Of a stretch of 64,000 nt of DNA, positions 13,301 to 58,819 are shown piece by piece (within the stretch, counting starts at the first letter, position 1; each line of letters opens with the position of its first letter). The notes below the pieces were generated by a model that was not told the origin of the DNA, did not search any database, and worked only from the letters and a program-made list of their open reading frames with translations. The position numbers were made by a program, and so were the translations under genes. Source of the stretch: Cliona cf. orientalis (taxonomy: Eukaryota > Porifera > Demospongiae > Clionaida > Clionaidae); the NCBI GenBank assembly GCA_963930775.1, contig OZ005706.1, positions 4,392,545-4,456,544 on the forward strand. The letters run 5' to 3'.

Positions 13301-16300
13301 AGATAACATGGCTCTCCAAAATATGTTAGGCACATTAAATGAGTATTGTTTTCAGTTAAGGGTGTCCGCTCTACCCAGTCATTCATATCCATATGAAGTT
13401 AATTGGACATGAGTGTAGAGGCTGTGCAGTGCATTGCTAACCAGATATTGTCCTAAAATCCCTTTCGGAGGGCCAAATATGTTAGGCACATTTTTTCCTT
13501 TTTAGTTCTAGTTAAGAAACTCCACTTGGTGGGCTGATAGCACTTATAATAAAGTTACTAAATCCCAAATTTGAAGTCTTGACTCCTTACCACTTCCAAG
13601 ATATAGCCACTTTTATCCAAAATCAGTGAAAAATCTATGAAAACTGGCCTGCACATATGTGGCTTCTGTATTAGCTATATATGGGAAATTTGCAATTTTG
13701 TAAAACACAATAAAAATGATTGTTATGGCCATTTTGATATCAAGTAGGTTTATCTGTGTAGTTTTTAGCCCAAAAATATGGTTTTAAAAAGTTTTGCTCT
13801 CTTGCTTGGTTGCACTGTATATGCAGGGTTTTTAGGGGGGCCAGGAAGTGCTTCCCCCCTCACCTGTTGAAATTGATTTTCCCACCTTGGAAATTAGCTT
13901 TCCCTATAAGTAGTATGGATTTGTATTTGCCCCCGCTTGAAAGCAAAATCCTAAAAGGAGCACTGTAAATTCAAAAAGCTTCGAGCCATGCATATACCAG
14001 TATCAATTGAAGAAAAAGCAGGGTAGGAGTATTGGTTTTCCATCACTACCACTCATGTTTTGGTGCTTTCTATTACTGCCACTCCTACTTTTGCTTCGAC
14101 TTTTTATACTCCTTGTGTTCTTTTTTTATCAAGTTTGTAGTAAACCATAATTTCCAACACCATGATGCAATGTAGCTATCATACTGAATTAGCTACTTGA
14201 TTGTATAATTATGCAGAAATTTTTGCCAGGAGTAAAGTTTCGCTAATTTGGCTACCTGCATGCACTCATTGGTGCTTGACAAACGATTAAAATTGCCAAA
14301 ATGCATAATCGCTTCTGAATGATACGAAAATTAAAAGTAGCTCAAGATATTGATGTGGCATCGAGTTATACTATTGCATAAAAGGAAAAATTACGATTTT
14401 TGTCACACTCGGGTTCCATATGTAAACGACCCTCTCGCTTATTGATAGACTTTCTCAGGGTTCATTCTTTGTCACTTTACGTTGTATGCACACGTAGACA
14501 TACACAGATTAAATTTCAAATCCGTACCTTGAGTCCACAACCCACAACTGCATGCTCAAACTAGGAGTGTACATGTGATGGCAACATTAATTTTTTGTTC
14601 TCCCCCAATCTTGTTACTACAAAACAGATATGATGGAAAAATTATCTAATCCCTCTCTTTGCAAATGGTTTGGTGGCCAGGCCCACGGGCCCTACCGCTC
14701 CAACCAACCATGGATATCATGGACAAGTAAAAAATATGATCGTCTGAAAACAATTTCCTCTGGATACCTGCCCATGAGACTAACTGTAATGAATATATGT
14801 TTGTGTGAACTAATACAAAATTATACATCGGTGCATGGCAATCTTGTACCACATGGCCAAATCAACATTTGCCAATGGTTCAATGAACAATGTTCGAGAC
14901 CAAACGTCAACCACTGCCAATAATGTATAAACAAAACAGCAACTTCGCTAATGATGTATCCATAGCTACATGCAGTTACCTCTACTTCATTTCCACAGTG
15001 GATGCAACACACCCTAGGATGAATGGACGTGTAATAATAATTACTATGCATGATGTGGTATGTATGCTAACTTGGTCACACACCTGAATCTCAACTCAGC
15101 AGAAATCCATTCCATAATCTTCTTGGCTTGCAAGTGTACACTTCGGGCTTGAAAACTTGTTGCAGTAAGGATCAATATTTTTGGCTACAGTAATAGTCAT
15201 AGCAAACGTAAAACTAACTTCAACCGAGCCCTTGCTTCAACCCATTGGTTCCCAACCAGGGAGCAACCTGGTCTACATAATAGTTAGACACCGAGGACAA
15301 CAGTATTTAGCATCCCAATGGCCCCGAGCTGTGATACCTAAGCATTAACGCATTGCAAGGGTGTTACTAAGGGGACAGAGGGATGCAAAATACTGTGGAT
15401 ACCATTGGCTGAGGTGAGCAAGTTATTTAGAGTTTACAACTGTTGCTCTAGTAAAACCTACAAGTAACTAAGCTACTTAGTTATATAATTACTTCCTATT
15501 GACCAATCAGATTACAAGCAGTAAATTCTAATTCTACAAATTATCACTTTGAACTTCCTAATTCCCCACTCTCTTTACTCCGGATCCCTCAATTACACCG
15601 ATCACAATGGCAGATCCAATGTCTCAGCTCCATGATATGCATTATCTAACACATTCCACCACTCCTTTTCCTATCAATAATTTCCCTTTAAAAATCACTT
15701 CCATTAATGTTCTTTACTGCAACTGCACCCAGACTCAACTCAATTAAGAGACAACTATTATTATTCATGAATTCCATTAACTGACTATCGCTGTGAATCG
15801 ATGCTGATGCACCAAGATACTTTGGAGGTTGTGCCCGGCCCAGGGGAACTGCTGCCACTGCCGGCAATGCAATGGACGTCACGTCAAATCCCTGGATCAA
15901 CCAATGTGCTAGAACGCGCATGCGCACAGCGATCACACTAGCTCGAGCCCCTCCCCCCGAGTGGGTGAGGTACTAGGTCGATCCGTTGCACAACATCCAA
16001 GCCTTGGGAGGTCTGAGGTGGATGTCCTGCATACTCCACCCCGTCCAAGGGAAGGTGAAACCATGAGTGAACCTTCAACCTCCCAAGAAATACACTCGAG
16101 GTGAGCCACCCCACCATCATATTATTCAATGCACGAGATACAGCGAAATTAACAAGAATAATTGTTATGAAATGCAGCTCAACAGAAGAATGGGCACAAA
16201 TGATAACTGATAATTCATAAATATGACAACGTTAAGGAGAGCAGCTCACTGACGAGACAGCAGCCTCGAGACGGCAGCCAAACGTTCGCGAGGCGTTCTG

Positions 16301-19300
16301 ACATACACCAGATACGCCGTGCTTTCCCACCTGCCCAGGGCCTTGATGAGGGAGTCTTCCAGGCCACGCTCTGCCGCTGTGGTGGCGGCCCCAATCCTGA
16401 AACTGTGGCCAGCGTAGTGTGTGCTGTGGAGACCAAGAGCTTCCAGAGCCTCCCTCACCCTGTTGGTGAATCTCGTTGGCGTTAGTAGCCTGCCATCCTG
16501 GAACCGGAACAGGGCCCCCGGATCTCCTTGCCTGGCTGCTAGGTAGGCCAGCACCGCCGACACCGGGCACAGGTCGTCGCCAGTCTTCCCAATGAACACG
16601 TCTATACCTTGTCTGAACTGGTCCGTTTTCGATTGCTTCAGGTGTATCTGCAGGACAGTGGGTGCTGACAGGCTGTCCACGGCCACGTCGCTGAAGCTGA
16701 AATGAAGCTGCGGATTGAATCCTCTGTCCGACGGCGATGTAATTTCGCCCACTCTGAAAAAACCGAAGAAGCATAGAGTGGACGCTGCCCATAGCATGAT
16801 CGTGTCGAAGTTGTCTGCCGATCCAGACCACAATGCCCGCACTTGTCTCAGGATTGGCGGAGTTATGGGCAATCTGGGGTGAGAGGTACTTCGGAGTGCA
16901 TTCTCACGATGAATCCCCCTGCTGATGAGGTCCAGTCTTGGGGTGGGGAGCGCTCTCGGGTCGGGCAACCCGTTGCAGAGATGTAAATACCGGACTGCTG
17001 ATAGGTATGTCTTAATAGTCGTATATGACAGATTTTGATTAGCTAAGTATGCAATAAAACCACAAAGAATAGATTGAGATGCTGGTAGTGGGGCCATAAC
17101 ATTATAGGTGATACAGAACTGATTAAACTTAGCTATGCCGGCATGATAAGTCTTCCTGGTTGACGGTGCTAAGCCAGCTTCAAAATATCTTTGAACTTTT
17201 CCCTCCAGGCTGCTGATGTCCAGTCTGGCCGCTGAATGGCCAGCAGCTCCAGAAGCGGCACTGGGAGTGATGTGGAGCCCGAGACCTCCTTGGAGGATAG
17301 CTGGAGAAAAAGTGGGAGGTTATTCCGTGAGAGAGCATCTGCGAGAGTGTTTTGGTTCCCTGGGATATGGGCGGCCACCAGGCTGAATTGAAATTCAGCT
17401 TCAAAGAAGAACAAGCTACGCAGCAAATACAGCATATCTCCATCCTTGCAGGACCTCGAGTTGATGACTGCAACTACCGCTTCGTTATCGCATAGGCATT
17501 GGACGTGGAGGCCAGTCCAACGTCTGCCCCAAACAGCTGCTGCTAACACTATCGGGAGGAGCTCCTGTGTTGCAATGTTCTTTCCCTGCAGTGCTGTGGC
17601 GTCGGACCAGGCCAACTGGAACCAGGTGTGGGCCCAGTAGGCACCACAACTCCAGCTACCAGAAGCGTCGGAGGTGAAAGATGTATCCGGCTCCCGCCTA
17701 CCAGCCATCGATAGCAGAGAAACTCCATTCCAAGTCTCCAGGAATACATTCCACCACATTATATCGGACCTAGCTTGGTGATTGATCCGGACATGGTGGG
17801 TCAGCTTGCTCACTGATTTGCTCAGGTCGATCATCCTCCTCAAAAACGGACGTCCTGGGCGGACGACGACGCTCGCATGCTGCAGCTGACCAATCAATGA
17901 CAGGAGCTCCCTTTTTGTGCAAGTTCTTTTACCCACCCACTGGGTCACCGTTGACTTGAACCGAGAGAGATTCTCCATGGCCACCGGCAGTTGTAGCACA
18001 CCTAGGACAGTATCGATCTAGATGCCGAGGAAGGTTAAGCATGTGCAAGCATCGACGAGCTTTTCCTCTGCCAATGGTACTCCCAGTCTCTTGCACAGCT
18101 CCACCATTGTTGAGATGTTTGCTTGACACTCACTGCTCCCCGGAGGGCCCATGGTGATGAAGTCATCAAGATAGTGCCATACGTCCTCCACTCCCTGAGT
18201 GTGGAATATCCACTCCAAGGCATCGGCTACTGCCGTGAAGATTTTTGGAGCCGACCGGAGGCCAAAGGGCAGGGCTGCATCCACATACAACTTCCCGTCC
18301 CAGCACATACCCAGCAAGTAGCGATCCTGCGGGTGCACAGGAATTAGTCGATATGCACTTTTGATGTCAAACTTTGCTATCTGGGCACTGGGGCCCAAAT
18401 CGATGAGGCGCTGAACAACATGCTCCAGCCTGATGTAAGACAGGGAGCATAGCTCTGAGGGGATGCCATCGTTGACGCTCCATCCGGCCGGGGAGGATAA
18501 GTCAACAATGAGGCGCCATTTTCCAGGCTGATGGGATTTCGGGATGATACCGAATTTGCTCACATGTATATGCGGCATCGACTGTTTCTCAAATGGGCCT
18601 AGGAGGGTCTGTCGCTCCCTCTCAGATTGCAGGTATGCTGAGACTACGTCAGGATGGTCACTGGTCCGCTGCACATTGGATGATGCGCTGCGTAGCCTCT
18701 GTCGACGGTCAAAGCCAATGCGGAATCCCTCTATTAGACCGCGGATAAGCCAGTCCGTCAGCTGCGGGTCAGGATGCTTGTGCAGCAAGATTTCCCACTG
18801 GTCCGTCTGCAGGGGGGTCCTCACAGGCTGCAATGCTGGGTGGATCTGCGGGCTCGGAGAGACTAAGCCCAGCTGGTGTAGCGAGAGCAACTGTTCCACG
18901 AAGGGATTCGGTGTACCTGCAGGCAAGCATGCAGTTGGAGTCATACACTGAACCCAGCTCTGAGATACATGGCTGAGTGTGGAATTGACACAGTCATGCA
19001 GGTCCCTGTACCGTGACTTAATAGCTGCTGTGCTGGCTACTGCATCCCCATGTTGGAAGAAGAGAGGGGGGAAGGATCCACCCCTCTGGTCACACCCCGC
19101 TTGAGGTGGACAGGCCGGGAATGGCTAGCCAAGAACTGGGACCTACCATAGCCAGCCCTCAATAATCTGTGTTATTATTACGATTATTATAGGAATAAAT
19201 GCGCATGCGCACAGCACACTCTTTAAGTGTACACGCATGCGCGCAGCACACTCATAATAAAGCGATTGCATGACAGTCAACAGTACAATATACACTGACA

Positions 19301-50001: not shown

Positions 50002-50316
50002 TAGAGTCCAGCAAGGGATACATTAGCTCACTGTTCTTTAATGATCGAGAATAACGACCTTTACCAACCTAGGTAGTCATGTGATGTATCACAAGCATGC
50101 GCATATGCGCGATATGCGTGATCTGAGCTCTGCTCAGTACTGTGCATCTGGATTATACTGTCTGACACACCATGAAATTGAAACAAAGTCTAATATTAAA
50201 GTTCACTGATCACATCCTACTTTCAAAGGTAAGACATTTGTCCAAGCAAATGCTATGCATATGGCTGTATTAGCTGTTTAGTGGTGATAGTGCAAGCATT
50301 AAACGAGGAGGCGGGG

Positions 50317-50324
50317 TATAAAAG
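50317..50324 (+). promoter_or_regulatory. TATA box of the transposase gene
   Basis: TATAAAAG preceded by GGCGGGG, 14 bases inside the left terminus and 237 bases before the ATG. A similar GGGTATTTAAGG motif faces inward near the right end (about 54429-54440, minus strand) and could serve the second gene. Confidence 0.5.
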
Positions 50325-50560
50325 GGCCCGCCCTGGACGGAAGCAATGTTTATTTTACCACATCCGTCACATGAGCCAATATGGCTGTATTACAAAAATT
50401 CGCGAGTTATCTTGCCATGCCGGCAATGGCGCCAGCTATTTTGCACATGACAAACACACAGTACAGTACAGCGAACCAGCGTTGGCGCCATAGCGCGAAT
50501 ATAAAGAAAGCGCGAGACACCCCAGAGACACCTTTTCGAAGGCACCTGTAAGGAAAAAAA

Positions 50561-53381
50561 ATGGCTACTTTGAATGAGCAGAGAAAGAAGCGCGCGAGAC
50601 TAGGATTTCGGTACACTATGGAGCTGAACTTCGCCAGTGAAGATAGCAAGAAGTCGTTCTTGTCGAGGGTGGAGAGCGCTAAACAGAGACTCGCTCCCAG
50701 AGGCTCACCGCCGCTGGACAGTCGCGAGCTACTTAGCTCTCTATTGGATTTGGCTGAGGCCACTCCTCCACCTGCTACCACGTGCACTGGAGATCAGTTT
50801 CGAAGCCAGGCAGTCCCTACAGGATCCATGACAATGCTGGAAAACTCAGGTGTGTATTAATAGATACACGTAATGGCTTAGTCATAAACAACAAACTAAC
50901 TGTTGTGCTTAGGATTCTTTGTACCCGGTGATGAAGGCAATGATGAAGCCCAATCATTATTTGTTTGTGAGCGCAAGACGTTTGAGGATCTTTGCGCTGG
51001 GCTCATACAACCATGTCAGTGCCAAGCTAGTGCACGGAAGATGATCAAGACTGTTCAGGTGTGCATAGCCCATTCAAGTGAACTTATCAAATATTTAGTC
51101 GATGTTTATATGCATGTACATGTACCTCAGAGAGGACATGTCCTCCGTGTCGAGTTTCAGTGTCAGCAGTGTAAACAGAAGCAGCGGTGGGCCAGTTCAC
51201 GAACACTTGGAGGACGCTACCTTATTAACCAGAAGTAAGTATCCATTATTTTCCCTTCGTTACAAGAGCTAGGTACTGAAATATTTTCAGGATCGTGCAT
51301 TCGTTTACCTGTGCTGGTATTCTGCCAAGCCAGTACATCCATTTTTCCACTCATGCAAACTTGGGCACACTGGGTCCATGGTATATCAATTCGGGTGAGT
51401 TTGCAAAAGAAATGGGGTGATGGTCGATTGACTCTTTGCTATTTGCTAGTCTACAAAAGTGGTGGGTACTTGGAAGCAGTGAACACCTGTGCCAAGTTAT
51501 CAATGATGAAAGCTATCACAGAAGTGAAAGCATTGCCAAATTACGCTGCTAGTGGTGAGGTACGTATGTGCACATTTATAACCCTGCTACGAATTAATGA
51601 TAAATAATGTTGTATCTCTCAACAGTGGGTTATTACTGATGCTCGACACGACTCGACATCCAATGCCTTCCATACCACTGTCCCCTGCTTGTCTGGAAGG
51701 TAATTATGTGTTCAATTGTTGTTGTGAATAGGTGTATAGAACATGATACGTTACATGTATACATACGTTATTGTATTATAATTATTATGATAGCACCAAA
51801 CGAATTCTTGGCTGTGCAACAGTATCCAGAAAGGAGCATGCCATCGCTCAAACAAGGGAACTTGAGGCCACCAAAGCAGTACTTCCTCAAGTCCTTGAAC
51901 AAGGTGGTATATTTCATGTATTTATGTGAACATTGATTATTGAATTAGATCTATACATGTATGCAGATCTGAAGGTTGTGGAAGTAGCGCATGATAATGC
52001 AGCAACAGTCAAGAATTACATCACCGAGGATTTACATCTCCTGAACTCATACGACACGTGGCATGGTACAGTTGCTGATTCCCAATACTTGTCATGGTGT
52101 TCAGTGTGCTTTAATTAGGTACCAAGAATGTAGCAAAGGGCATGAGGAAGATCTCATGTGGTACCAAAAAGACAGAAGGAAAATCTTGGTTTGTAGAGTT
52201 ATCAGACAAATGTAAGTTACCAACTCATGAGTCTCCACCATTGTGATGTTCTACATGCATGTACATGTAATTAGGCAAAAGTACAAAAGTTCATCTGTAC
52301 TACTGCATGAAAAACTGTGCCCAGTCTCCAACAAAGCTTAGGGAGAGCATTTTAAACATTATTAGCCACTACCAGGTGAGTCAGAAGCATAGACTACCCT
52401 CTTATGTATGACTTTACACAATAATTCTTGCTATACAAAGAACAAGCACTCCCAGTGCCACGAAGAATCCTTCTGTAGACGCTCTGGGTACAGTCCCTCA
52501 AAGTTGCGACTCACCGATCCTGCCGCAATACAGGCATATGAGAAGGCACTCAAGGCCACTCTCATTTACAAGAATGCGGAATCATACTGTCGGGTAAGTA
52601 ATTTTGAAAGATTTTACGACATGTGTTGAGCAAGTTAATCTATCATTAGTGTCGGGATACTTTCTGGATCGAGTCGTTCAACCATCAGTTGCTCACTTAC
52701 CTTCCCAAACGTATTCATTTTGGCTCCACCACCTTCAAGATGAGAATGAACCTTGCTGTTATGGATTGGGTATAATAATGCTCATAATTTATTGTGTTCA
52801 CACATGTTGACTCTCACCCCCCCCCCCCCCCCCCCCTCCCGGCACACTAACTAATATCTAGAATGAGAATGTACAAAGAGCCAGCACAAGTGAGCATTTT
52901 GTTTTGGATATGAGGAGACCCGACCGAAGAACTCCCATGAAGGTGCTAGTCAAGAAGACTTTTAATTTTGTTGGTGATATCTGGAGGACATACACTTGTT
53001 GGAAGGTTACCGACCTCAGGTGAGCGAGAGCATCTTGTATGGTGGATAATGGTGTGGTACTTCATGTACAATATTATTGTGTGTATGCACATGTTCATAT
53101 ACACTTGCATGTACATGTACATGTATTATGCATGTTTGCATGTATCTCGCCCTTGCTCCCTCCCTTTCTCCCCCTTCTAAGTGAATCCTAACCTGAAATT
53201 ATATTGAGGGTGGAGAGAGAGTGACATAGTGTATACCACAGTGTTTTTCTTTTCATAATCTTATAGGGAAGTGGATGAGAACGACAGTGATGTGGATGTG
53301 GGTGATGAGGAGGATGATATATTGGCTGATGGGGAAGGCTTACTGGAGGATGAAGTTGATGAGGTGGAACAGCAAGAATAA
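50561..53381 (+). CDS. Kolobok-type DDE transposase, 591 aa, 14 exons, intact
   Basis: Exons: 50561-50849, 50913-51058, 51131-51234, 51291-51394, 51450-51559, 51626-51699, 51794-51903, 51967-52065, 52119-52211, 52275-52375, 52441-52593, 52650-52769, 52862-53019, 53267-53381. Sum 1776 nt, every phase matches. The N-terminal third has a zinc-binding-like part (CQQCKQKQRW, then FTCAGIL). The catalytic region reads ITDARHDSTSNAFHTT (Asp at about 256/260), EVAHDNAATV (about 322), SYDTWHGTKNVAKGM, KVHLYYCMKNCAQSPTKL, and FWIESFNHQLLTYLPKRIHF with Glu469. This order (D.R.DS..., D, D.WH..K, E...H..LL.Y.PKR.HF) is the Kolobok layout. The C-terminal tail is acidic (DVDVGDEEDD). Introns are 51-247 nt. 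It should cut and paste at TTAA. Absence of any lesion argues for recent activity or domestication. Confidence 0.75.
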
Positions 53382-53451
53382 ATGAACTGTATAGCAACAT
53401 GTAAGTGTGTGAAACTGCCTAATAGTACGTGTACATATGAGTGTGATTATA

Positions 53452-54219
53452 TTAGAAGCGTGATGATGGTTGGAAGTCGGTGTAAGGGACTCCGGGTGGA
53501 TTGGGAAATCGACCACGCACCTCCTGAAAAGATCACACTTATTGTTATTGTAAGTTGCTATGGTTGTAGACTACCTATACTTACCCTTACTACACATGCA
53601 GGCAGCACATCCCTGGTGTCTAGTACACTTGTCTTGGTGCACTTATAGTGTACGTATTCGGAATGGTTCCACACACCCAGCTGACTCAAGAAGGTCCAAA
53701 ATTTCCTATACAAAGCAAAGCGCTTGGAGTTGTTTGCAAGACTGGGTGCCGAAGAGCCCCTCACCCAGCTAGGTGGTCGGTCTACCACACAGGGGGAGAG
53801 GTGGCAGTATGGACAGGCATTCGGTCCATCGAGCTCTGGAGGATCATAACCACTTGGACCTATAAAGATAAGTTACCACTATAATATTATGTAATGTATA
53901 TAGAGCTCTGGAAAATTGGTGATAATGTTTAGTAACTGCAGGATAACCTTTCTTGGACTTCTCTGCTGTGGGAGCAGTGACTTGGCCAGTAGCAGAAGAA
54001 CTGGAAGAACTGGTAGACTGACAGCTGTCAAGGATACACCTCGTGGATGAGAGCTCTATCCCTGGATAGGAGGCTACCAAGACTCTGAACCCCTCCAAAA
54101 AGTCATTTGGAGGCTGTTCCTTGTAGTATACTTCAAGCTAATGGATATTTAGTTATTATTTATTATGTTTTGTTGATATTCAGCTAGCTCACCTTGAGTT
54201 TTGCCTGTGAAGCCATCAT
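53452..54219 (-). CDS. Uncharacterised 190-aa second protein of the Kolobok-like element
   Basis: Exons in transcript order: 54219-54193, 54137-53948, 53868-53585, 53523-53452 (573 nt, phases match). One donor (AAAG|GTTATC) is weak. It begins MMASQAKLK, followed by LEVYYKEQPPNDFLEGF, a Ser-rich linker (STSSSSSSATG), then a Cys motif NACPYCHLSPCVVDRPP, a helical block RFALYRKFWTFLSQLGVW and the end RFPNPPGVPYTDFQP. The CPYC...PC pattern suggests one metal site. I recall similar short proteins as unnamed families in cnidarians, but not a function. Its position inside the TIRs suggests a DNA-binding or regulatory partner of the transposase. That role is inference. Confidence 0.65.
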
Positions 54220-54508
54220 TAATTTTGTTAGGTTTTTTGTTATGAAACTGTCAGACAGCAGCTGTTCAAATTTCTATTGTTTGGCGCGCTTGTATGGTAC
54301 CGCGCATGCTATGTAAAGTGCATTGTGAGGGCTTCACAGTGGTAAGAGAATGGCTACATAGCCATGGCAAACTCGCCGAATTTGAATCTTGGCGGCGAGG
54401 TCAAAGGTCGTGCCCTGGGCACGCGCCTTAAATACCCGCAGTCCGCAAACGATCGCGCGTTGGAAACTTTCGCGTATTGCAATATTTAACCCCAACTTCC
54501 TCGTTTAA

Positions 54509-55278: not shown

Positions 55279-55376
55279 TAGTCAGAATTTACAACCATGG
55301 TACAATTGCATGGCACTTGCGATAAGTGTGCGGTATGTATGTGTGGTCGATGAATAATGTTGTGCGACTTGACACA

Positions 55377-56750
55377 ATGATGGAGTTTTCAAGCGAAGAC
55401 ATCGAACGTGCTATCGATACTGCCATGCAAAAAGCTGAGGTAAAAGAATTGAAAAAGGAGCAGCGAGGTACAATACACGAATTTGTAAGTGGCAGGGATG
55501 TGTTTGTGTCGCTCCCGACTGGGTACAGTAAATCGTTTTGCTACGCTTTGTTGCCCGCTGTGTTTGACGAGCTTCATGGGAGTATTGGAACTTCTATTGT
55601 GATATGTGTCTCTCCGTTGACAGCTTTGATGATGGAACAGAGAAACAGGTTTATCATGCGTGGAATAACAACGGAGTTTGTTGGAGAACTACAGCAAGAT
55701 GTGGACGCCATGGAAAGTGTGAAGTCTGGGAAAATTCAGCTGCTGTTTATCAGCCCAGAGTCATTGCTGAATAATCCACAGTGGAGAGAGATGCTGATCT
55801 CTCCAGTATACCAGACAAATTTGGTTGCGCTAGTAGTTGATGAGGCACATTGTATTATACAATGGTAAGTGGCTGGTGATCATTAATTGGAGTAGTGACT
55901 ATGAGAATATGCATACAGGGGTGATAGCTTTCGGACGGACTATCGACGTCTTGGTGAGATTAGAGGCCTGATTCCCATCACTGTACATGTAATGGCTGTA
56001 ACTGCCACTGCCACCAAGTCGTCCAGAAGCAAAATAATGCACATACTCCAGATGGAGAGATCACAAATTGTGTACATCTCGCCCTGCAAGAAGAATATAT
56101 TTTATATGGTGAAGAAAAAACCACCCATGGAGGAATTCGTTCATGAATTAGCAGATTCACTATGCAATTTGAAAACCTCTATGCCCAGAATCATCATCTT
56201 CTGCCGACGCTACATGGAATGTGCGCAGATGTATCAATTGTTCCACCATTATCTCGGGAAAGACTTCACGGAGCAATCTGGGATTGCAAAGTGCAGATTG
56301 GTAGATATGTATTGTAAGTGTACAGAGCCAGATGTCAAAGAGGCAATAGTATGAGCATTTTCCTTACCCAATGGTAACTTATGAATTATCATTGCTACCA
56401 TTGCATTTGGGATGGGACTGGACTGCCCCGATGTACAAGTTTTTCACTGGGGTCCATCACATGACATTTATGTTCAAGAAACAGGAAGAGGTGGCAGAGA
56501 TGGATTTTTGTCATGTGCTCTACTCTTCTATTGTGATTCAGACAATAGAACATCATCACCACTCATGATGGAATACTGCACTCTGAAAACTTGTCACCGA
56601 ACCCAACTTTTTCAAGATTTTGAAGAATCTGACATGAGAGTTGCTGCTTGTAGACCTTGTATGTGTTGCAATGAGTGTATGGTGACGTGTAAGTGTGTCT
56701 CTTGTAATACAGGTTGTAGTATCAAGAATGCATTTCACTGTGTAGCTTAA
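55377..56750 (+). pseudogene. RecQ-like DNA helicase, two in-frame TGA codons
   Basis: Exon 1 55377-55864, exon 2 55919-56750 (TG|G phase join, GTAAGT donor). Motif I VSLPTGYSKSFCY (Walker A with Tyr-Ser), VSPLTALMMEQ (Ia), motif II VVDEAHCIIQWGDSFR, motif III VMAVTATATK, then RIIIFCRRYMECAQM. In [30 protein letters not shown], stops at 56352-56354 and 56382-56384 interrupt clear RecQ sequence. The second sits where the family has Arg, so CGA to TGA fits. Motif VI is [10 protein letters not shown]. The C-terminus is Cys-rich ([19 protein letters not shown]) and ends at 56750. Such solo RecQ copies are common in sponges and cnidarians as I recall. Converges with the DUF6589-like gene, 163 bp away. 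Confidence 0.8.
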
Positions 56751-56913: not shown

Positions 56914-58819
56914 TCAATGATTGCTGCCCGTGACACTTTTGAACTCGTGTTTTCGCCTGGGATACTTCTCAAAAACATCTTTTGCTTGTAGCTGATTGAC
57001 TATCCTTTTGAGATCTTTTTCACGTGATGCTTGTGTGTGTTTGCCTGACGGTTGGCGAACAGAAGATTTAGCATCAAATTGCTTACAGACGTTAAGGAGG
57101 GGTCCCACACACTTCCCAATGCGGAGTATTGTCCTTGGTGTTAGGTTGGATCCTTGATGACCAAGGACAGATTTCACTGTTCGGTTCAAATGTTCCATGT
57201 GTAGGTCACAGGGCTTGTTGTCTCCAGCCTTGCCCTTTGTGTTCACGAATTGTGACCAAATCATCTGTTCCCTTAGCCGAGGTGGTAGTACATGAGTGTT
57301 GATAAGTAGTTTAACTGCTTCAAGGGAATACTTCGTCCTTTTGGATGACTTAAATATCGGTAGGAAAAACAGCCAATAACGGACCACCCTTTCTCCATCG
57401 CCCTCTTTAATAGCATCTTCAAATTCTGCATTGAGTAGGCTTAATGTGAGCACTTCACTTGCATAAGCAAAGACACCATCTGCACAAGATCCATGATCGC
57501 CAGTCTCCTTTCCAGGCCTTATTGGAAGATTGATGAGTCCTATTAACATGTTGAGGATGTGTTCGTGAAATGCTGATCTGCCCTCAGAGCTCTGTAATTC
57601 ACAAGTGAGCGTTGCAGGAAGGTCTGACTCACAATTCTCCATTTTGAAATGCTTGAGAGTGGCTGCAATAATATGTCCTTCCATGACAATCTGAATATTA
57701 ACATAATATATAATTACTATTATACCAGTATCAACACATAAGGTTAAATGATATCACTGAGAATTGACTTTTTTTACTTACATTAAGAAAGTCTTCAGCT
57801 GCATTTGTTTTTTTTTTTTGGGAACATTCGTCCTATTAAATCAATGATTTCAATTGTGCAAGAGTTCCAGCATCCTTGTAAGCACCCTCTTTGTACAATC
57901 GTTTCCACAGCACCTGCAAGGATGTACAGGGTACACAGGCTTATTGAAATAAGACGCTTTATCATGAGGCCTTATTTGTATTATATTAACTTAAACAACT
58001 ACATCTCTTACCTCCATAAAACATACTTTGGTATGCCAGTCCTCTGCAACTGGAATAGTGCCTTCCAAACGACCAGCTGGATGTTGGGAGTTTTGTCGGA
58101 CTCTGCAGGCTGCTCGTGCTGTCTCAGCTGTCAGCTGGTCCCCCACCAAGTAGAATTTTGTGCGTATTCTCAACTTTCATCTCAGTAGTACCTACTTCTG
58201 GTATATCAACAGTAAAGGTGGTAAGAGTAACTGGAGAAAAGGGGGGACTCACTGGAGATTGGATGTCTGCTGGCCTAGGAGACTGAACACAGGGAGGTGT
58301 TAGAGATTCACCATCAAGGCTGATGTCAAATAATCCTGAGACATCCATGTCTAGCTCAGACTCTTCTGATGGTAGATGCAGAGGAGGTTGTGTCTGTGTC
58401 CTCGTTGAAACCTTTATTGTGCACACACTAACCATCAAAACGTTCATAAACTATTATCAGTCTTACCATTGGATCGGGAGAGGGGACTCAGACCACTAGG
58501 TCATCTTACCATTCAAGAACTTCTTCGTCATGACCATCAGCTATATTCTCCATCAATGCCATAGTCGAGGTATGAGTCAAACAAATCCCCAGTTTGTGCA
58601 GCCTAGTAAATACCTACAATAGAGTAAGGTAGGAGCAAGTCCAAGTAAGATGGCTGTCAGGGTTGGTGCCTTTTGCTCCAATTCACTCCATACTGTTTCC
58701 CATGTAAAGTGCTCCAGTGCTGTCGTATTGTTCATTCGGAGGATCGAGTCACGTGAATCTGAGCACACTCTATTTTGTGTGTGACATTGAATCACGTCAC
58801 GTTTTGCAGTTGATTTCAA
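56914..58819 (-). pseudogene. DUF6589-like protein, frameshifted
   Basis: Exons in transcript order: 58562-58510 (MALMENIADGHDEEVLE), about 58431-58012, 57913-57782, 57690-56914 (stop). Recognised DUF6589 blocks: YLVGDQLTAETARAACR, LEGTIPVAEDWHTKVCF, VLWKRLYKEGAY, then FHEHILNMLIGLINL, RYWLFFLPIF and KPCDLHMEHLNRTVKSVLGH. Lesions: an extra A in a run of four at about 58155 shifts ENTHK to the GDQLT frame. In the third exon TAA TAG plus an A12 run indicate paired one-base slips. The block FTWETVWSELEQKAPTL at 58635-58735 is probably another N-terminal exon. The family has no known function and appears with transposons in animals and fungi. Homopolymer errors in the assembly could explain the shifts. 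Confidence 0.7.

Follow-up and report, generated by a model that had tools for sequence, protein, structure and literature searches.

A two-gene element between TTAA repeats

We analysed a 64,000-nucleotide window of the genome of the sponge Cliona cf. orientalis, which lies on contig C18 of a 216.8-Mb assembly (G000). The window holds a unit with two predicted genes, a transposase and a second gene, on opposite strands and tail to tail (Table 1). The second gene resembles KolX. In the parts of Kojima and Bao (2022, PMC9587614) drawn on here, a transposase plus KolX characterize the Kol0 lineage of Kolobok transposons, recorded in vertebrates, annelids, cnidarians and sponges, and the ballast domain of P2X7 is derived from KolX. 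Judged by its sequence, the unit is very likely a young cut-and-paste DNA transposon, probably still mobile, that works like a Kolobok of the Kol0 type.

An initial annotation had placed a TTAA-flanked unit with ACGAGGA and TCCTCGT ends at 50303..54504, and these boundaries proved exact by sequence. It had also described a lesion-free 14-exon transposase converging on a lesion-free 4-exon second gene. Both models are indeed open, with predicted products of 591 and 186 amino acids (aa). The transposase model was built from the sequence; several in-frame splice alternatives exist, and the longest was kept. Retention of an intron would cause a frame shift or a stop for 12 of the 13 introns. The model of the KolX-like gene is the top-scoring of 396 chains that the sequence allows. 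An ATG at 54219 has no aligned ATG in the seven other copies compared, whose start corresponds to 54216.

Table 1. The element, its genes and its insertion site, in window coordinates
Feature	Position	Strand	Basis or detail
Left target-site duplication, TTAA	50299..50302	.	Sequence; 17 of 18 both-ended copies; single-TTAA empty site
Complete element, 4,202 bp	50303..54504	+	Other copies begin and stop at the same points
Left terminal inverted repeat, ACGAGGA	50303..50309	+	Sequence and copies
Predicted transposase gene, 14 exons, 591 aa	50561..53381 (ATG 50561, TAA 53381)	+	GT-AG chain, 13 introns, no internal stop
Transposase exons 1-7	50561-50849, 50913-51058, 51131-51234, 51291-51394, 51450-51559, 51626-51699, 51794-51903	+
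Transposase exons 8-14	51967-52065, 52119-52211, 52275-52375, 52441-52593, 52650-52769, 52862-53019, 53267-53381	+
Predicted KolX-like gene, 4 exons, 186 aa	54216..53452	-	Exons 54216-54193, 54137-53948, 53859-53585, 53523-53452
KolX tract existing in two diverged versions on a near-identical backbone	53621..54099	.	L004, L005 and L008 versus window type
Internal TTAA	54428..54431	.	Equivalent site in another copy (contig C12) hit by a same-family insertion
Right terminal inverted repeat, TCCTCGT	54498..54504	-	Sequence and copies
Right target-site duplication, TTAA	54505..54508	.	Sequence and copies

The unit is inserted at TTAA and has multiplied

All copies described here come from searches of the same assembly. 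A search with the whole unit returned at least 89 matching pieces; 40 of 93 candidates were scored, so these counts are lower bounds, and the best eight matches were fetched whole. Searches with the ends gave 33 left-end and 43 right-end matches, and 30 of each were fetched. Simple terminal patterns recognised 25 of the 30 left ends (five went unrecognised), with TTAA adjoining 22 of them. On the right, 21 of 30 ends were recognised (nine were not), and every one of the 21 adjoins TTAA. Both ends were recognised in 18 copies. Seventeen of these carry TTAA on both sides, and the further copies with shared ends and flanks that the initial annotation proposed looking for are thereby found. The right end of two of the 17 (C12a and C1h), where the match ended two bases early, was placed two bases further. 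The 18th copy (C3:2585681-2591067) is split by other DNA and has TTAA on the right and CATC on the left. By chance, a given four-base flank is expected to match about once in 256.

Empty sites at position 50299 had been suggested as another check, and they exist. When both flanks of the window copy were joined over one TTAA and used as a query, loci running through the junction were recovered, four of which were fetched and aligned. One (L091) has identical letters across the single TTAA, and a second (L092) is identical on the right and over nine bases on the left. In a third (L094) the TTAA is retained and neighbouring bases are changed, and the fourth (L093) has a gap at the TTAA position. 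A copy on contig C16 sits in a high-copy repeat, and three fetched empty copies of that repeat (L095-L097) read through a single TTAA. On contig C12, a family member is inserted inside another copy, at the TTAA matching window 54428-54431; this site is uninterrupted in the window copy and others. Since many copies lie at unrelated sites, carry TTAA flanks and have single-TTAA empty counterparts, the window unit is a real insertion that duplicated its TTAA target, and it belongs to a family that multiplied recently.

On contig C12, near 8926580-8938381, copies of the same family are clustered in nested and head-to-head arrangement.

The transposase is kept under selection

The seven other copies fetched whole lie at unrelated sites and are 99.75-95.5% identical to the window copy. 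Openness was judged in these eight best-matching copies, a set outside which other long copies fall (for example, C1:22276375 and C13:4983468). The transposase is open in five of the eight: the window copy (L001), L002, L003, L004 and L005. L003 has a 9-base in-frame difference that leaves the frame open. In L002 a single base is added immediately inside the donor of intron 11, and the intron still starts with GT. The transposase of L006 has its 5' end cut off by other DNA, and those of L007 and L008 are broken. The KolX-like gene is likewise open in five of the eight (L001, L002, L003, L005 and L006); L004 carries a one-base frameshift, L007 is shifted between two deletions and L008 has an altered last exon. 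The window copy had been singled out as exceptional. Both of its genes are open, as stated, but at least three other copies (L002, L003 and L005) are intact too. Four of the eight best-matching copies therefore keep both genes open, and the idea of a unique intact copy was rejected.

Among the ten pairs formed by the five open copies, the ratio of nonsynonymous to synonymous divergence (dN/dS) of the transposase is 0.09-0.21, at synonymous divergence (dS) of 0.01-0.08. A dN/dS test was part of the initial proposal, and the ratio is low, although measured across copies rather than species. The two copies with broken transposases give 0.17 and 0.20, as expected if the breakage was recent. Introns have diverged 1.5-2.6 times as much as exons, and 1.9-2.6 times as much in the more distant copies; L005, for instance, differs from the window copy by 5.2% in introns and 2.0% in exons. 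Within the family, selection has maintained the transposase.

Low dN/dS and long open frames would also be seen in a pair of genes domesticated by the host rather than carried by a mobile element. We consider this highly improbable. The ends are bounded by TTAA at many unrelated sites, one copy is nested within another, and the empty sites contradict domestication. Another account, which we think unlikely, is that the element has recently stalled. The window copy would then have moved with the help of another copy, its open frames would be too young to have decayed, and the family might now be inactive. With under 1% difference among the closest copies, a single lesion-free copy is weak evidence for activity, and two of the eight best copies have broken transposases. 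On the other side, the transposase is open in five of the eight, and the open set includes pairs with dS of 0.06-0.08 and dN/dS of 0.10-0.18, which means that selection on the transposase acted for some time.

The predicted transposase matches the Mutator-like transposase family PF20700 of Pfam (35.4 bits; cut-off 26.5), the sole match above cut-off. Comparison with solved structures gave two matches, with expect values (E) of 0.29 and 0.41, which we regard as chance. Putative catalytic residues, chosen by eye, are D256, D322 and E469. The sequence DTWH at residues 342-345 would be the DxxH motif, and C387, C391, H413 and C416, between DTWH and E469, are putative zinc-finger residues.

The second gene resembles KolX and was probably exchanged between lineages

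A profile built from the KolX-like protein and its relatives in the same genome matched the host P2RX7_C proteins along 39 columns in the C-terminal block (probability 94.6%, E 6.4e-8), with the exon 3-4 joints of the relatives placed by eye. When the last exon of the relatives was left out, the probability was 49.6% (E 1.7e-4). The Pfam family P2RX7_C (PF20478) weakly matches six of six KolX-like members at E up to 1, the best at 0.0026. Three cysteine clusters of the P2X7 ballast, PxWCxCx2C, LCCRx3GxCITT and PSC...IRx2[FY]P...Y, are given in the part of Rump et al. (2020, PMC7016195) cited here. The third alone is recognisable in the window protein (LPACVVREVRGRFPNPPGVPYTD). This protein has seven cysteines, four of which are invariant across 12 exon-3 sequences of the genome. 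In the Pfam scan it also reached 17.4 bits against DUF2946, below the cut-off as well. PHROGs gave no match for KolX. Pattern searches for KolX relatives returned 67 matches in viral contigs and 41 in prokaryote genomes, none of which was confirmed.

Elsewhere in the assembly there are 25 matches above the P2RX7_C cut-off (for example, L080-L085), several of them with long open frames.

The KolX-like gene has a history that differs from that of the transposase. Between L001 and L005, its dS is 0.37 and its dN 0.038, while the transposase dS of the same pair is 0.07. L007 carries the window-type tract at 53621-54099, though its transposase is about as diverged as those of L004, L005 and L008. 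Because the differences concentrate in this tract, and because KolX dS far exceeds transposase dS, the sequences suggest that element lineages have swapped the KolX region. The second gene is constrained in its more diverged comparisons.

KolX looks constrained where the transposase is lost

Ten more diverged copies lack the transposase core (C1b, C12a, C2a, C6, C4, C8, C1d, C1e, C12b and C1n). Eight of them have one internal deletion in common; C2a and C12b have others. The remnant transposase exons contain frameshifts and stops, several of which are common to multiple copies. The KolX region is present in nine of the ten, C1n being without it, and all four KolX exons are open in four of these nine (C1b, C2a, C8 and C1d). 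In these four, the exon 1 donor and the exon 2 acceptor, the sites that the splice check covered, are intact.

We counted substitutions in KolX exons 2-4 of the nine copies and found 30 synonymous and 37 nonsynonymous changes and no stop (omega 0.44, p 0.0009). In the four open copies omega is 0.22, but selecting open copies by itself lowers the nonsynonymous count, so the figures for all nine are fairer. The transposase remnants (exons 1-3, 13 and 14 in five copies) have 35 synonymous, 96 nonsynonymous and 6 stop changes, with omega of 0.93 to 1.51 depending on the set. Exon 1 of C6, one of the five remnant copies, starts in flanking DNA, which pushes these remnant figures towards neutral. 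The noncoding alignment behind the neutral spectrum was noisy (430 transitions, 416 transversions), and the remnant exons are therefore the better control. A simpler count gave omega of 0.19-0.38 for KolX versus 0.81-1.35 for the remnants (Fisher test, 0.0064 and 0.0005).

The count was repeated with codons near insertions or deletions masked and badly matching pairs of exon and copy dropped. KolX then had 28 synonymous, 31 nonsynonymous and no stop changes. The remnants had 24 synonymous, 73 nonsynonymous and 4 stop changes with exon 1 included (Fisher p 0.0028), 13, 42 and 3 without it (p 0.0064), and 10, 40 and 3 without exons 1 and 14 (p 0.0015). Further Fisher values for KolX versus remnants were 0.0068, 0.0021 and 0.0009. 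The contrast stands after masking. On these sequences, the KolX-like gene looks constrained despite a deleted and decayed transposase, and the transposase remnants in the same copies look neutral; we read this as selection on KolX itself.

The main alternative is that this constraint was inherited or imported. The changes counted may be variation from before the transposase was lost, or may have come by recombination from autonomous relatives, and we hold this to be a substantial, if minority, possibility. Within the main subfamily a KolX tract appears to have moved from copy to copy, the contrast involves only nine copies and about 60 events, and the founding deletion may not be common to all, given that C2a and C12b differ. 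Speaking for constraint after the loss, none of the nine fetched copies with this KolX type has a transposase core, and the transposase remnants of the same copies look neutral. A search with this KolX type lists just two further close copies, a rearranged copy with a stop in exon 3 (C1:21732103-21732815) and a 75% identical copy (C11:8622221-8622902); these two, KolX exon 1 and C1n lie outside the KolX count.

We put forward only tentatively, and with some doubt, the idea that KolX acts as a mobility factor under selection for its own sake and favours its own copy. Transposase-dead derivatives would survive and spread with KolX retained and transposase borrowed, and selection would act on each copy of KolX separately. 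If this is true, the P2X7 ballast domain, the reported descendant of KolX, would come from a DNA-transposition factor. A constrained KolX beside a decayed transposase in the same copies makes KolX function testable.

A second family with the same gene order

Outside the window family, 23 other transposase loci were taken by hand from among the matches listed. A KolX-like match lies tail to tail within 5 kb at 22 of them, the exception being C10:3049258. Some 18 of the 23 appear to belong to a single young family, and the tail-to-tail order therefore represents few independent cases.

This second Kolobok-like family has near-identical copies at about 18 places, with the same tail-to-tail pair. 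Three members were fetched (L104, L105 and L106), and their aligned parts are 98-99.6% identical. Their ends, ACGAGCA and TGCTCGT, adjoin TTAA at three of three left ends and two of three right ends. Because of these ends, 5'-ACGAG is common to at least two families in this host. The transposase of the second family again has DTWH, an HSxCH block and an ESFN block; of the CxxxC pair it lacks the first C, and the region of the first D does not align cleanly. The second family has perhaps been active more recently than the window family.

Neighbouring open frames

A 180-aa open frame on the plus strand (55326-55868), with a DEAD helicase domain (PF00270), lies beyond the right-hand TTAA of the element, some 0.8 kb away. 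A 279-aa open frame on the minus strand (56914-57753) matches DUF6589 (PF20231) at 102.5 bits. Further left, on the minus strand at 16246-19124, open frames match reverse transcriptase (PF00078) above cut-off and a tyrosine-recombinase-like N-terminal domain (PF13495 and PF02899) with both scores below cut-off; together these resemble a DIRS-type retrotransposon.

A possible mechanism and its relation to known systems

In the mechanism we propose, the spliced transposase would bind the short terminal repeats, excise the element and insert it at TTAA. The second protein would be an accessory factor that binds zinc, is related to the P2X7 ballast domain and aids the element encoding it. This help is suggested because KolX seems constrained even in derivatives without transposase, which must be moved in trans. 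The cited text of PMC9587614 states no function for KolX in transposition. The kind of transposon is already known, and KolX constraint in the absence of the transposase is the point worth following. Complete, young two-gene copies of a Kolobok-type element offer a clean setting in which to study the function of KolX.

Several results weigh against a young Kol0-type Kolobok with a KolX partner. Three recognised left ends (L019, L021 and L026) are without TTAA. Scanned against Pfam with matches accepted to E 1, the transposase showed no THAP domain. Against PF20478 the KolX-like protein reaches 15.5 bits where the cut-off is 23.5, and clusters one and two of the published cysteine pattern are not recognisable in it. 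Neither the protein nor its profiles matched P2X7 among the solved structures, a search in which, as a control, the host P2RX7_C proteins do find P2X7. Among the close copies L001, L002, L003 and L006, KolX has too few changes to reveal selection, with ratios from undefined to 1.5. Finally, under the TTAA reading the element has 5'-AC...GT-3' ends, as against the 5'-RR...YY-3' ends of Kol0.

This last point bears on the name given to the element. Among the Kol0 criteria in the cited part of PMC9587614 are ends of 5'-RR and YY-3', a C/DxxH motif between the second D and the E, and a zinc finger between that motif and the E. The AC...GT ends occur under the TTAA reading in the second family too. 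Since TTAA is palindromic, the sequence also permits a reading with a TA duplication and AA...TT ends, and that reading would fit RR. The initial label of Kolobok-like is borne out in how the element appears to work, through its TTAA target, DDE-like residues, DxxH motif and tail-to-tail KolX-like gene; the 5'-RR ends are not seen under the TTAA reading. We hold back formal Kol0 membership in view of the 5'-AC ends and the weak match to KolX. By its sequence features the element would work like a Kolobok of the Kol0 type.

piggyBac elements have the TTAA target in common with the window element. A piggyBac identity was rejected, since the Pfam scan turned up no piggyBac transposase family with E of 1 or less. 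The Xenopus XKol transposons, as far as they are described in the part of PMC6004289 used here, are like the window element in their TTAA target, short terminal inverted repeats and DDE transposase. They differ in that a THAP domain is called usual for Xenopus Kolobok elements, and AG ends are given for the full-length elements in the list; the window element shows neither. With the P2X7 ballast and Nanor-like proteins (PMC7016195, in the part cited; PF20478) the second protein shares the C-terminal block LPxC...RxRFPxP...Y, although it has the third cysteine cluster only and a score below the Pfam cut-off. The closest likeness in kind is to Kolobok-1_XT and other Kol0 elements as characterized in the cited account. 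The TTAA target is common to both; their DxxH motif, the C and H residues between DxxH and the putative E, and a KolX gene with kinship to the P2X7 ballast have putative counterparts in the window element.

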